IMG/VR virus record: IMGVR_UViG_3300045115_000282
Coordinates: 1-39,217 of that record
DNA length: 39,217 nucleotides
Direction: 5' to 3' (one strand)
Origin: a virus
The notes under the pieces were generated by a model. It had not been told where the DNA came from, made no database searches, and worked only from the letters and a program-made list of their open reading frames with translations. Position 1 is the first letter of the stretch, and every line of letters starts with the position of its first letter. A program made the position numbers and the translations under genes. Positions 6,803 to 39,217 of the stretch are shown piece by piece.

Positions 6803-7504
6803 TCAGACCTTTCGCCCGATCCAAACGACGCGACCAGCTATGAAAACGTCGTCGGCGTCGACCTCCTCGGGCGGGATGGTGGTGTTATCGGACATGATGC
6901 GGACCCGGTTTGGGCTGACCGTGCGGAGCCTCTTGATCATCGCTGCGCCGTGGACGCTGAGGGCCCAGATGCGATCCTGCATGGTGAGGTGCCGCTGAGT
7001 TCTGTCGATTATGACCTGATCGCCATTGATCATTGTCGGGAACATGCTGTCGCCGTCGCCTTGCGCGACAAACAGCATGTCCGGCGGTGCCTGCGTCAAT
7101 CCGCGTAGAAAGCCGGGGTCGAACAAGACCGGCAGCTCGTCGGGATAGTCCTCGAAGTTGCTACCGGCCCCCATTGCGTAGCTAATATCGACCTGCCTGA
7201 GCGCGATCGCTCCATCGCCTGCATGGGCGGAAATCAGCGGGGCGTGGTCTGACGACACGCCCCGCTGCGGCTGGGCTCGACCCAGCGCGTCCGGCAAGAG
7301 ATCGGAAAGGGACAAGCCGAGGGCGGCGGCGAGCTTCTCGATCGTCCCGAGCTTTACGTCCTTGGTCATGCCCTGGAGAATGTCGCGCACGACCGTTTCC
7401 CCCAGCCCCGCCGTTCGGGCCAACCCCTTCGCGCTTGCGCCACGGTGCTTCATCGCGGCTTCCAAGCGGACCCGCAGAATGTCGATTGCTGCCTCTGTGC
7501 TCAT
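6803..7504 (-). CDS. CI-like repressor, S24 peptidase family
   Basis: A 233-residue LexA/CI-type repressor. Residues about 8-70 form an XRE helix-turn-helix (RVRLEAAMKHRG, AKGLARTAGLGETVVRDILQG, IEKLAAALGLSLSDLL). Residues about 110-230 form the S24 peptidase domain, with the serine in GDSMFPTM (S153) and the lysine in AMIKRL (K191) that make the self-cleavage dyad. A GAG at 112-114 or the HAG at 94-96 could hold the cleaved Ala-Gly bond. The ATG at 7504 is chosen because the longer frame to 7609 runs through the promoter and operators. It would maintain lysogeny and be inactivated by RecA-stimulated cleavage, making the phage SOS-inducible (inferred). Confidence 0.9.
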   Translation of the reverse strand: MSTEAAIDILRVRLEAAMKHRGASAKGLARTAGLGETVVRDILQGMTKDVKLGTIEKLAAALGLSLSDLLPDALGRAQPQRGVSSDHAPLISAHAGDGAIALRQVDISYAMGAGSNFEDYPDELPVLFDPGFLRGLTQAPPDMLFVAQGDGDSMFPTMINGDQVIIDRTQRHLTMQDRIWALSVHGAAMIKRLRTVSPNRVRIMSDNTTIPPEEVDADDVFIAGRVVWIGRKV

Positions 7505-7542
7505 GCTTCCGTGTGCCAAAAAACCGCCCTTTCCGCCATATG

Positions 7543-7571
7543 GTGATACAAAACACCATTTTGCTTGAAAA
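7543..7571 (-). promoter_or_regulatory. Repressor promoter (PRM-like)
   Basis: On the minus strand TTTTCA (7566-7571), a 17-base spacer and TATCAC (7543-7548) form a weak promoter about 32 bases ahead of the repressor ATG. Its -35 overlaps that of the rightward promoter back to back, as is usual when one switch region serves divergent genes. An inverted repeat, ATGGTG-N8-CACCAT (7540-7559), covers its -10 and could be the Cro-like or autoregulatory operator. Confidence 0.55.
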
Positions 7572-7594
7572 GTGTTACCGGGCACACCTATAAA
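7565..7594 (+). promoter_or_regulatory. Rightward early promoter (PR-like)
   Basis: TTGAAA (7565-7570), an 18-base spacer and TATAAA (7589-7594). The spacer contains the operator GTGTTACCGGGCACAC at 7572-7587. The predicted transcription start near 7601 is only about two bases before the ATG of the Cro-like gene, so the mRNA may be leaderless. Confidence 0.75.
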
Positions 7595-7602
7595 GGCGGT
7601 TA

Positions 7603-7830
7603 ATGACACCTTCCCTGCTCGATGAAGTGGAGCGTTTCCTGACGCTCACTGGAATGAAGCCAACCGCGTTCAGCGTCGCCGCGACCGGAGGCCGGGATCG
7701 TCATTTCGTCCGGACACTTCGCGCTGGCCGTCAAACTTGGCCCGCGACACAGGAGCGCGTCCGCCAATTCATGAACGACTACGCGCTGGCGAAGCTTGCC
7801 GAAGCGCGCGACGCGGCAGATGCGGGATGA
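7603..7830 (+). CDS. Cro-like regulator
   Basis: A 75-residue protein divergent from the repressor. The N-terminal 58 residues read as a helix-turn-helix: LLDEVERFLTLTGMKPTAFSVAATGGRDRHFVRTLRAG, with recognition-helix-like RHFVRTLRAGRQTWPATQERV. This is the pattern of short alphaproteobacterial phage regulators. Its position immediately downstream of PR and opposite the repressor is that of Cro. It is coupled by ATGA to the primase-like gene. It probably binds the same operators as the repressor, with opposite effect. Confidence 0.75.
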   Translation: MTPSLLDEVERFLTLTGMKPTAFSVAATGGRDRHFVRTLRAGRQTWPATQERVRQFMNDYALAKLAEARDAADAG

Positions 7831-10339: not shown

Positions 10340-10893
10340 CGGCGCAGTTCGACCCCAGCGCGTTCATCGCCGCCGAAGTGTCGCAAAGTGTAGCGACGCC
10401 TCCCGCGTCATTTTCGATGAAGCCGCTACACAAGGAAACGGCGGAAATCTGCGCCACTCGGCCATCCGATCGGCAAAGTGTAGCGAATGTAGCAACTGTA
10501 GCAGGGGGTGACGCCGGAAATCATCCTTGGAGTGCCGACCTGCTCGCCTGGGCGAGCGGTCGCCGTCCACCGTTCGCGCAACCGGTTATATGGGATGCGC
10601 TGATAAACGAGGCCCTCACGATCTCGCGGGCATGGGGTGATCGCGCCATTGCGGCTGGCTGGTCATCACTCGATCTGTTCGGCTGCTATCGTCGGCCTCA
10701 ATACCGTCGTCTCGATTGCAACGGCCTCGTTGCGGGCATCGTCGGTCTCGTCACGCCAGTGCGGTTGACCGACATCACGCCCGGCCATGCCGACCTCACC
10801 GATCATCACGGCAACGTCATGAGGCATTACCGTCGGGCAAAGCCCGAGGCCGTCCATCTGTGGGAGGCATATGTCATGCGCACCGGCCCGTAA
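10336..10893 (+). CDS. Hypothetical replication-module protein
   Basis: A 185-residue protein starting MTAQFDPSAF at an ATGA overlap. The first 70 residues are low-complexity and encode repeated VA(N/T) steps (QSVANVATVAGG), which come from three TGTAGC DNA repeats at 9-base spacing. Residues about 75-185 form a compact domain (WSADLLAWASGR, AWGDRAIAAGWSSLDLFGCYRR, DCNGLVAGIVGL), a pattern that follows DUF3987 genes in alphaproteobacterial prophages. It may be a replication accessory protein. The N-terminal part may exist mainly to carry the DNA repeats. Confidence 0.75.
   Translation: MTAQFDPSAFIAAEVSQSVATPPASFSMKPLHKETAEICATRPSDRQSVANVATVAGGDAGNHPWSADLLAWASGRRPPFAQPVIWDALINEALTISRAWGDRAIAAGWSSLDLFGCYRRPQYRRLDCNGLVAGIVGLVTPVRLTDITPGHADLTDHHGNVMRHYRRAKPEAVHLWEAYVMRTGP
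10479..10502 (+). repeat. TGTAGC repeats, plus orientation
   Basis: TGTAGC at 10479, 10488 and 10497, exactly 9 bases apart, with a further copy at 10389 and an inverted one at 10425. The set lies inside coding sequence. Its mirror set is at 11060-11083. Confidence 0.8.
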
Positions 10894-11017
10894 CCGTAGC
10901 AATGACCTTGCTACGCATTGCTACACCGGCACGATCCGATGCCACTTCATCTACTCTCCCAGCTAGAGAGTGGAATACATATCCTATTGTATTTATTATA
11001 TTTTCAAGGACTTTAGG
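10894..11017. other. AT-rich intergenic region, candidate origin
   Basis: This 124-base gap is the most AT-rich stretch in the replication module. It contains 9-base inverted arms GTAGCAATG (10896-10904) and CATTGCTAC (10916-10924), a hairpin ACTCTC-N7-GAGAGT (10953-10971) and AATACA-N8-TGTATT (10974-10993). It then runs into TTTATTATATTTTC. It is bracketed by opposite-facing TGTAGC clusters. That arrangement suggests iterons around a melting region, but a regulatory role for the next gene is also possible. An AAGGA ribosome site (11006-11010) ends it. Confidence 0.5.
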
Positions 11018-11368
11018 ATGACGCAGAGGGGGAATTTCGACAATGTAGCGGAGGGCGTCGCTACAGTTGCTACACTTGCTACAGTCGCCACCGCGCGCTT
11101 TAGCGAAGGCGACCGCGCTGGCGGCGTTCGCGTCTCGCGACACGCAATTGCCCGCTACCGTGAGCGCGTTGCTGATGGCCCTGATGAGATGATCATCGCC
11201 GCGCTGAGTAGCGTGGCTATTCAGGCGCTGGCCCAGATCGGCCGGGGTGCGGTCATTCTCTCCTGCGGTGCGCGTGTCATTGTCGAGAACGGAACCGTCT
11301 TAACGGTCTTGCCGATCGGCCAGCGGGTAATGAACTGGCACCGCTACAGCGCGACGGAGAATTTCTGA
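11018..11368 (+). CDS. Hypothetical protein with RxSxHAxxRYxERV motif
   Basis: A 116-residue protein; the ATG at 11018 has AAGGA seven bases upstream, better than the earlier in-frame ATG. Residues about 10-25 are VATVATLATVAT, encoded by three inverted TGTAGC repeats. The second part begins RVSRHAIARYRERV and continues with IIAALSSVAIQALAQIG and a beta-rich end (AVILSCGARVIVENGTVLTVLP). That HAIARYRERV start occurs in small phage and toxin-like proteins, but I cannot name a characterised family. It lies between replication and packaging genes. Confidence 0.7.
   Translation: MTQRGNFDNVAEGVATVATLATVATARFSEGDRAGGVRVSRHAIARYRERVADGPDEMIIAALSSVAIQALAQIGRGAVILSCGARVIVENGTVLTVLPIGQRVMNWHRYSATENF
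11060..11083 (-). repeat. TGTAGC repeats, minus orientation
   Basis: GCTACA at 11060, 11069 and 11078, again 9 bases apart, with one TGTAGC at 11044 on the plus strand. This is the mirror of the cluster at 10479-10502. Both clusters encode Val-Ala-Thr steps although their DNA orientation is opposite. Confidence 0.8.
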
Positions 11369-36999: not shown

Positions 37000-37443
37000 A
37001 TGGCCCTGCCCTTAATCCCGCTGCTCGGTCCGCTTCTTGTCAAGGGCCTCGCTAAATCCCTGCCCGCGCGCCTCGCCGAGAAATGGGCGCCGCGGATCGG
37101 CAAGCTCATAGCCCTTGCGATCGCTGCCGGGCTGCTCTGGCTCGCGATCAACGCTGCGATCGGCGCGATCCGCGAGGACGCGCGCAACGACCTTCTCGCC
37201 GACCAGGCTGAACAGCGCCGCCTCGCCCTCGAAGCCCAGCGCAAGCGCGAAGCGGACGCGGCGGCCGCTCGCGATGCCGACCTTGCCGCCGGTGCGAAAA
37301 CCGACGCCGACCAGGAAAAGGAAATCACCGATGCAACGAAAGACCTTCCTGATTCTCGCCCTACTGCCCGCCAGCGTGCTCGCGTCTGCGTCGAGCTGCA
37401 ACAGCAAGATAAAGCCGCAGGTCGCGCTCCGCGTCCCTGCTGA
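37000..37443 (+). CDS. i-spanin (Rz-like)
   Basis: A 147-residue protein. The N-terminus holds two hydrophobic stretches, ending with a membrane span (residues about 36-58, LIALAIAAGLLWLAINAAIG). A long Ala/Glu/Lys coiled coil follows (QAEQRRLALEAQRKREADAAAARDADLAAG). This is the inner-membrane spanin topology. An out-of-frame gene for an o-spanin begins within it at 37331, the classical Rz/Rz1 nested arrangement. Together they fuse inner and outer membranes at the final lysis step. Confidence 0.75.
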   Translation: MALPLIPLLGPLLVKGLAKSLPARLAEKWAPRIGKLIALAIAAGLLWLAINAAIGAIREDARNDLLADQAEQRRLALEAQRKREADAAAARDADLAAGAKTDADQEKEITDATKDLPDSRPTARQRARVCVELQQQDKAAGRAPRPC

Positions 37444-37642
37444 CACCTTCGACCGCGCCGACCGGCCCGAGATGACCGCTGAGGCGCTCGACAGCGCCGA
37501 GGCGGGCGAGAAGGTGCAGGATGCCCGCGACGCGTGGGGCAAGGCCATCGCGCGCCAGCTCGACGCCGCGTGCCGCCTGCTGCGCGACAGCGGCGTGAAG
37601 GGGCTCAATCCGTGCCGTTCGGCCAAAGCCGAATGGGAATAG
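37331..37642 (+). CDS. o-spanin (Rz1-like), nested
   Basis: A 103-residue protein starting MQRKTFLILALLPASVLASASSC in the +1 frame relative to the Rz gene. The signal peptide leads to Cys23 (SASSC), an imperfect lipobox. The mature part is unusually long for Rz1 (about 80 residues; ADTFDRADRPEMTAEALDS) and extends 199 bases past the Rz stop. Nested Rz1 genes are found in many phages. Its embedded position is the best evidence. Confidence 0.7.
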   Translation: MQRKTFLILALLPASVLASASSCNSKIKPQVALRVPADTFDRADRPEMTAEALDSAEAGEKVQDARDAWGKAIARQLDAACRLLRDSGVKGLNPCRSAKAEWE

Positions 37643-37788
37643 GGATTCCTCTTTCGTCTCCGCTCTGTTATACGGCTTTCGCAATACTCTACGTCGTCAT
37701 TGGCGGCGATAATTTTGGATTTGATCGGGGAGTAACCCGGCCCTGCGCTTCGGACTGACATCGACGCAGTGCTTGCCCCGATTAGAAG

Positions 37789-37817
37789 GCCCGGTGTTGG
37801 TAGCGCCGGGCTTTCCT
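37789..37817 (+). terminator. Terminator after lysis genes
   Basis: GCCCGGTG (37789-37796) pairs with CGCCGGGC (37804-37811) around a 7-base loop, followed by TTTCCTC. It lies 146 bases after the Rz1-like stop. It could end late transcription or be a stem of the structured region. Confidence 0.55.
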
Positions 37818-38167
37818 CTGACCCGCGAAGGTGCAACCTAATGGGTGCGGGCTGGGCCGTCAGGTGACGCGGAGTGCGGACGAAAGCCAGAATGCATCAC
37901 AAGGCGGCGAGTAAGGACAGGGAGTTCCCGGTCGGCTCGCCGCCTTCTCTGCCCCCGTGCGATCAAGGGGTGCCAGCCCAGGGACGGGTTCCGCGAATGC
38001 GGGGGTGAGTGGCTCGCGAGGGGTTTGGCCCTGAGGAGTAGCGCCTGCGGGCGCTATTTCTTTGACTGGCGGGCGCGACCAAAATTCCGAATGGGAATTA
38101 TGCCCGACGCCACGCCCTAAGGCCCCCGCTCTCAACTACAGGCGCCGACCAGCCGGGGAAGTGTCCG

Positions 38168-38257
38168 ATGGAATCGGACTGTTGGCAAGAGGAACAAGAA
38201 CCAAATCCGCAGGCTATTGGGGCTGCTCGGTCCTGTGACCGGCCGCTTCATTATTAG
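38168..38257 (+). CDS. Possible 29-residue peptide
   Basis: MESDCWQEEQEPNPQAIGAA and nine further residues, with GGGGAAG about seven bases upstream of the ATG. The stop overlaps the 3' end of the convergent XRE gene. It could be a real small peptide or an accidental frame in a structured RNA, since its start lies in the GTCCGA/TCGGAC hairpin. Confidence 0.25.
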   Translation: MESDCWQEEQEPNPQAIGAARSCDRPLHY

Positions 38258-38850
38258 CCCGCCTCGGCAACCCTCGCGCGCAGTTCGGCGACGACCGCCT
38301 CTTGGGACGGGTAGCCCTTCCCATGAAAGAAGGTCGCCTGTAGGCCGAAAATATCATCGAGCGCCTCGACGAAATGCCCGATCGTCACAGCCCCCCACGC
38401 CTTGCCGGCAATCTGCCCGATCCAGTTGAGCACGACGCGCGCGCTGATCATCTCATCTAGCGGGACATAATATCGCTCGCGCCGTTCGACGACGTCATTC
38501 CCGTCATCATCGCGGCCGACAACCTCCTCGCGGCTGTCGAGATCGAGCGTCATCGTCTCAGCCGAAAAGCGCCAGCGCCCCCATGTCCGGCCGTCGGTGA
38601 GGCCGGGCTGAGAGAGATACATCCCGATCAAGTCGGACGCACTATACGAGCGCGGCTCGTCGTCAGGCCGGGCCTCGGGATGGTCGACGAGATAGAGCAC
38701 CGACAGCGCGGTGCGCGGCTCGATCGGCTTTTCGCCCCGCTCCATCATCCCGACGAATTGCGGTGTGACGCCGAGCGCGTCCGCAAGCGCTGCCTGTCTG
38801 AGATCCATGCTCTTTCGCAGAGCCTTCAATTCGTGTCCTTGCATCATCAT
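38254..38850 (-). CDS. XRE-family regulator
   Basis: About 198 residues from ATG at 38850 (ATGs at 38847, 38844 and a GTG at 38871 are alternatives). Residues about 4-58 form an XRE helix-turn-helix: QGHELKALRKSMDLRQAALADALGVTPQFVGMMERGEKPIEPRTALSVLYL. The C-terminal part (DLIGMYLSQPGLTDGRTWGRWRFSAETMTLD, then VVERRERYYVPLDEMIS) is beta- and aromatic-rich and has no serine-lysine peptidase pair, so it is not an S24 repressor. It is a separate regulator from the one at 6803, on its own minus-strand transcript convergent with the late region. Confidence 0.75.
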   Translation of the reverse strand: MMMQGHELKALRKSMDLRQAALADALGVTPQFVGMMERGEKPIEPRTALSVLYLVDHPEARPDDEPRSYSASDLIGMYLSQPGLTDGRTWGRWRFSAETMTLDLDSREEVVGRDDDGNDVVERRERYYVPLDEMISARVVLNWIGQIAGKAWGAVTIGHFVEALDDIFGLQATFFHGKGYPSQEAVVAELRARVAEAG

Positions 38851-38876
38851 CTTCGTGCCTATATCTTGCACCCTAT

Positions 38877-38973: not shown

Positions 38974-39217
38974 TCTCTTTCCTTTCGGGTTTGTCGGCGG
39001 GATCAGGTGGGTTCCCTCTCCGTCCGACAAGAGAAGAAATACAAACTCAGTTGCTATCCGTCAAGCGGAAAAGCAACTGAGTTTTCTTTTTATGGTGGTG
39101 CTGAAGCCGGTCGAATCGGTGCCGAAGCCCGCAGAAAACTGCGGTGCAGCGGCGGTGCTCTCACGCTTTTCGGTGATTTGGAATCGCACCCTCAACGGGC
39201 ACTGGACGCCCCTTTGA
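38924..39217 (+). CDS. Doubtful terminal reading frame
   Basis: A 97-codon frame starting at GTG (MKVKVTFQTRSRIENC) whose stop is the last codon of the window. Its composition is unlike the phage genes, and it crosses the hairpin at 39043-39084 and the opposite-strand leader frame. It may be an annotation artefact or the start of a gene fragment at the phage edge. A shorter start at 39092 would leave 41 residues. Confidence 0.2.
   Translation: MKVKVTFQTRSRIENCILFPFGFVGGIRWVPSPSDKRRNTNSVAIRQAEKQLSFLFMVVLKPVESVPKPAENCGAAAVLSRFSVIWNRTLNGHWTPL
39036..39064 (-). promoter_or_regulatory. Promoter candidate for XRE leader
   Basis: On the minus strand TTGACG (39059-39064), 17-base spacer, TATTTC (39036-39041), with a start predicted near 39029. 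The -35 sits in the loop of the long inverted repeat, so protein bound to the repeat would cover it. Confidence 0.4.
39043..39091. terminator. Long inverted repeat / terminator
   Basis: AAACTCAGTTGCT (39043-39055) pairs exactly with AGCAACTGAGTTT (39072-39084), loop of 16 bases containing CCG/CGG, followed on the plus strand by TTTTCTTTTT. It is a strong rho-independent terminator for plus-strand transcription. The 13-base arms also make a possible operator for the divergent minus-strand promoter. Confidence 0.75.

Follow-up and report, generated by a model that had tools for sequence, protein, structure and literature searches.

HEARO, or omega RNA, is a structured RNA able to stand without its nuclease gene, and integron attC sites carry GTTRRRY/RYYYAAC core sites and are recognized by the integron integrase. 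The GOLLD and ROOL phage RNAs are ornate and hundreds of nucleotides long (Rfam; PMC12286853). The convergent anti-sRNAs of lambdoid prophage moron sites, AgvB and AsxR, have been shown experimentally to be Hfq-bound transcripts of 51-60 nt (PMC4104026), and the boundary (linker) sequences of mosaic phage genomes have been discussed in PMC3029335. The role of conserved joints in mosaicism is usually left open because boundary sequences are seldom identifiable, and non-coding cargo is easily overlooked in phage annotation. Here we describe two recurring conserved structured elements, A and B, located in a gene-free gap of a viral DNA stretch of 39,217 nucleotides (hereafter the window), which matched no known RNA family and probably represent a new phage-borne structured RNA or hairpin.

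When the window was searched with cmscan against Rfam, no match reached the gathering score. HEARO, GOLLD and ROOL gave no match in 37600-38300 even at E values up to 10, and relaxed thresholds yielded nothing credible for the gap or its homologues. The HEARO/omega-type resemblance raised in the original prediction was consequently abandoned, as this Rfam model was unmatched in the window, the gap and the homologues, and features of omega RNA were not found; the likeness lies in a candidate structured RNA that stands without a nuclease gene. The GOLLD-like option fell in the same search, and also by size, since the conserved unit is only ~150 nt versus several hundred for GOLLD or ROOL. With these RNAs, A shares being structured, non-coding, borne by phages or prophages and without a known protein partner. 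Like AgvB and AsxR, A is a small non-coding element that recurs across many prophages at a single type of site, flanked by cargo genes and a convergent phage ORF, and has conserved and variable parts; unlike them, it is ~150 nt long, has no conserved terminator, belongs to another host group and is a putative RNA. Like phage linker sequences, A is short, conserved and placed where exchanged modules meet, but it combines conserved unpaired blocks with a hairpin that covaries, and it lies at non-equivalent joints. A can be likened to integron attC sites by description only (bulged stem, variable tip, location behind ORFs). No paper on small RNAs of Sphingopyxis prophages was found in the literature.

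The window corresponds to a temperate podovirus, with a GP7-type major capsid protein (PF20911), a T7/epsilon15-type portal, a DnaG-type primase and a DUF3987 helicase. Its late/lysis block ends with an inner-spanin-like ORF (37000-37443) and, in overlapping frames, the final gene of the block, which encodes an outer-spanin-like lipoprotein (37331-37642, + strand; codon score +0.37; lipobox-like ASASSC). Both were named from their arrangement, as neither matched a PHROG; a homologue of the latter was present in contigs L004/L006. An HTH transcriptional regulator (38254-38871, - strand; PF01381 HTH_3 and PHROG regulators) is convergent with the late genes. Between them lies a non-coding gap of 611 bases (37643-38253), in which the ORFs scored -0.27 to -0.44 bits per codon in codon usage versus +0.36 to +0.50 for the neighbour genes, and the gap frames tested matched no NCBIfam family. 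The absence of a gene from this region, as originally predicted, was thus confirmed. Neither tRNA nor tmRNA was found in the window.

In a close relative (G400, capsid protein 91% identical), only ~97 bp separate the same two genes, whereas in a sister phage (G002/L006) the same gap covers 3.4 kb and holds ORFs and a truncated copy of A. One of these ORFs resembles the DNA-modification protein Mom (L004 998-1441, - strand, and L006; phrog_1384, E 8e-4), and two others, of 262 and 209 aa, had no family matches. The gap between the late genes and the regulator therefore varies among relatives and, on comparison of these phages, behaves as a cargo site. The sister phage, with its two ORFs, Mom-like ORF and truncated A, could suggest that the gap of the window is the remnant of a decayed cargo gene, which the original prediction had named as the case against itself. 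This reading is disfavoured and very improbable, as the gap of the window has no protein similarity and no coding or family signal, and both A and B recur elsewhere as conserved non-coding elements.

Dense hairpins had been predicted across the whole region, but neither inverted-repeat counts nor folding scores were outlying. The gap has 3 perfect inverted repeats of at least 7 bp; shuffled sequences gave 1.7 (123/500) and windows elsewhere in the phage 2.6. The folding z-score of the gap, taken over 615 nt, was -1.9 (-3.0 in a second run); the rest of the phage averaged -0.5 and went down to -3.3, and the best of its 150-nt folding windows ranked 25th of 521. As both measures fall within the phage's own range, hairpin density by itself is no evidence, and the whole gap as one exceptional RNA was rejected. 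Two individual predictions did hold. The 11-base perfect stem at 37901-37946 was present and rare, stems of at least 11 appearing in only 4 of 500 shuffles, and the three-part nested hairpin placed at 37724-37782 folded as described, at 37720-37786 (+ strand), although a homologue search for it gave none.

Three further hairpins on the + strand were terminator-like. A 14-bp hairpin followed by TTTCCTCT lies at 37785-37815 (z -5.6), for which the plasmid collection gave only an unrelated short match; a second, terminator-like by its sequence, at 38039-38063 (TAGCGCC-TGCG-GGCGCTA, then TTTCTTT); and a weak one, with a CTTCATTATT tail, at 38228-38255. Together with the convergent gene arrangement, these T-tailed hairpins would suit an ordinary terminator-rich spacer, whose hairpins just end late transcription before the convergent regulator. 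Such a spacer accounts for the hairpins at 37785-37815 and 38039-38063, but not for A. Neither A nor most copies of B have a U tract in either direction, the unpaired blocks of A are conserved, and the close relative manages with its far shorter spacing between the same genes, so that the spacer is an unlikely explanation.

The conserved hairpin of A was first exposed by BLAST with L006, and a pattern scan then added L042, a Sphingopyxis MAG. A covariance model (CM) built from the window, L006 and L042 recovered additional copies within the genus, and an extended model then yielded more. Of 80 Sphingopyxis genomes searched with the CM, 8 carry A, at 11 places in total (E to 2.5e-24), one of the eight being the L006 phage. 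Beyond these, A is present in the window and in two nearly identical viral contigs (L159/L160). Two copies each were present in G412, G430 and G439, and the A-bearing prophages are otherwise unrelated to one another. In a sample of 398 genomes spanning the whole family, G001 alone gave a convincing match, and no copies of the elements were found in the phage and plasmid collections. Several matches were attributed to chance: a marginal ninth genome (G450), a 31-bp match to an MFS transporter gene (L055), and occurrences of the GC-rich arm pattern in 46 genome contigs and coding sequences, set aside after inspection or testing. The matches set aside were L007-L053 except L042, L056, L057, L100, L108-L117, L148-L152 and L138/G450.

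Element A, detected by its CM matches, occupies 38064-38222 (+ strand), with a sharp start, G(A/G)CTGGCG, and an approximate 3' end (~38220). Hairpin 1 (38068-38116, + strand) consists of a bulged lower stem conserved in sequence and a hypervariable paired tip. In the arms, GGCGGGCGCG / CGACGCC-R-CGCC, an A and a purine are bulged, and changes there often break pairs rather than compensate, which indicates that the lower stem is constrained by sequence. In contrast, the tip differs wholly in sequence and length and is still paired in nearly every copy (weakest in G420), re-pairing with unrelated sequences such as AATTCC/GGAATT in the window, AGGGACG/CGTCCCT in G444, CTCACTGTAA/TTACAGTGAG in G439b and CTC/GAG in several others. 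A is non-coding, given its negative codon scores and tip-length differences that are not multiples of 3. Hairpin 1 is followed by a weakly supported mini-hairpin, P3 (AGGC-CCCC-GCT, 38120-38131, + strand; AGGC-nCCC-GCTT in the copies), and by a conserved block that is largely unpaired, ACGACAGGnGCCGACCAGCCG (ACTACAGGCGCCGACCAGCCGGGG in the window; 38137-38160, + strand). Hairpin 2 (GTCCGAT/ATCGGAC, 38163-38179, + strand) is variable, its stem in the window being common to G421, with other stems in G420 and G439b. The conserved 3' block (38184-38219, + strand) is GGCAAGAGGAACAAGAACCAAATCC..CTATTG in the window, GGCGAACGGAACTG..CAATTTGGTTATTG in others, and GGCrAnnGGAAC..CAATTTGGTTATTG across copies. 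The version in the window includes AACAAGAACC, so that the part singled out in the original prediction belongs to A. A closing stem proposed by RNAalifold (P1, CTGG/CCAG) was rejected, as it had no covariation and competes with hairpin 1.

Covariation among homologues, which had been proposed as a check on the original prediction, was detected: the structure of A scored 0.170 in 12 sequences versus 0.101±0.015 in shuffles (0/500), and slid controls reached at most 0.10. Compensatory stem changes beyond chance, as in structured RNA families, are therefore present in A. Wobble counts in hairpin 1 (7 G.U versus 9 A.C) favour neither strand, nor RNA over DNA. Of the predicted structured phage RNA, a conserved covarying element thus stands, putatively an RNA; its extent of ~570 nt does not, as A is ~150 nt and B is a separate unit of 46 nt.

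Element B (37901-37946, + strand) is the hairpin GGCGGCGAG..GACAGGG..CCCGGTC..CTCGCCGCC, which recurs in Sphingopyxis, 4 of the 80 genomes carrying it at 6 places in total with 87-95% identity. G430 holds three copies, and a diverged copy was found in G420. B lies directly behind A in G430b and in L159/L160, whereas in the window it precedes A by ~120 bases.

Spanin-like genes were located upstream of A in the window, G439a, G430a, G420, G412a and L159; the spanin stop codon overlaps the first bases of A in L159, and the spanin ends within a few bases of A in G420. An integrase is upstream in G001 and G421, and a shortened integrase in G444. The gene downstream converges on A in many copies. 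However, A is not always a 3' UTR, because the upstream gene points away from it in G412a and G430b. No T run was found behind the hairpin of A in any copy inspected, a separate terminator behind A in G412a being the sole convincing case among the 12 copies, and a promoter scan upstream of these copies, limited to a sigma-70-like consensus, gave none above shuffles. A promoter and terminator of its own, which would mark a prophage moron sRNA, were thus not detected for A. In a prophage remnant (L128 5943-6105, + strand), an integrase is cut short after ~53 codons right before A, near a tRNA-Gly.

Pairwise BLAST revealed that homology between prophages starts or stops at the borders of A. G412b and G430b share -334 to +154 relative to A, and G412a and G430a only from -1 onward; L159 and G430a have the spanins and A in common, but not the following sequence, and L159 and L154 share sequence from B onward. 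As homology stops at its edges, A sits at module boundaries, and the shared and unshared flanks indicate that A and B are discrete units at module joints. A is a self-contained, conserved unit whose hairpin is constrained; copies of it lie at operon ends, and the flanks around them are shuffled.

These breaks, at both edges of A and near B in several pairs, would also be expected if A and B worked as DNA, either as short sequences of a boundary or recombination type or as very small non-autonomous mobile hairpins, for module swapping by phage or host recombination, the hairpin acting as folded single-stranded DNA or being a by-product. The repeated copies (A twice in G412, G430 and G439, B three times in G430), tip stems that are almost all Watson-Crick, the missing promoter or terminator consensus, and sites between modules and near integrase genes, within ~0.6 kb of a tRNA in G430a and G444, are all compatible with such DNA elements. 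However, covarying stems and conserved unpaired blocks are more than a mere homology block needs, neither terminal inverted repeats nor target duplications were seen, and neither the searched plasmids nor the sampled remainder of the family contain A. A DNA-level role is regarded as possible, but as less likely than a role as RNA.

Covariation, conserved unpaired blocks and the positions of A agree with a reading as RNA. Our preferred explanation, held with a confidence approaching an even chance, is a phage-borne structured cassette that may act as RNA, either at the 3' ends of operons or as a small RNA of the moron type. In this reading, the podovirus is a temperate Sphingopyxis phage whose gap, where the late/lysis operon meets the convergent lysogeny regulator, would be a cargo site of the moron type, and A and B would move between unrelated prophages of Sphingopyxis where modules join. 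The upstream phage operon's transcript, or a separate short RNA, would end in A, whose hairpin of fixed arms and variable tip, with the conserved single-stranded blocks, may bind a host or phage factor. Such binding could define or protect the 3' end and insulate convergent transcription; alternatively, A might be released as a small regulatory RNA, like the convergent anti-sRNAs of lambdoid moron sites. The pair-breaking changes in the lower stem, the wobble counts that favour neither nucleic acid, the lack of a conserved promoter or intrinsic terminator, and the upstream genes that point away in G412a and G430b all count against this explanation. More speculatively, A (with B) might be a structured RNA class of sphingomonad phages that has not been described before, produced by transcription at the ends of lysis or integrase operons and regulating host or phage genes, with a conserved sequence that doubles as a module-exchange joint. 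This travelling covarying hairpin offers a testable case, either of a new small-RNA family of Alphaproteobacteria phages or of mosaicism in phages driven by conserved joints.

Genes of the SRAP domain (SOS response associated) adjoin A in several prophages (L142 4216-5206, - strand; L144; L143), and in L142 and L144 a 103-aa ORF without assigned function lies between the SRAP gene and A. Within the window, a 13-bp inverted repeat (AAACTCAGTTGCT ... AGCAACTGAGTTT, 39043-39084) upstream of the regulator could be an operator or a terminator, and lies within the phage's second-strongest folding window. Further strong local folding was detected near inter-ORF gaps at 10876-11025 and 7501-7650 (z -4.9 and -4.0, respectively).
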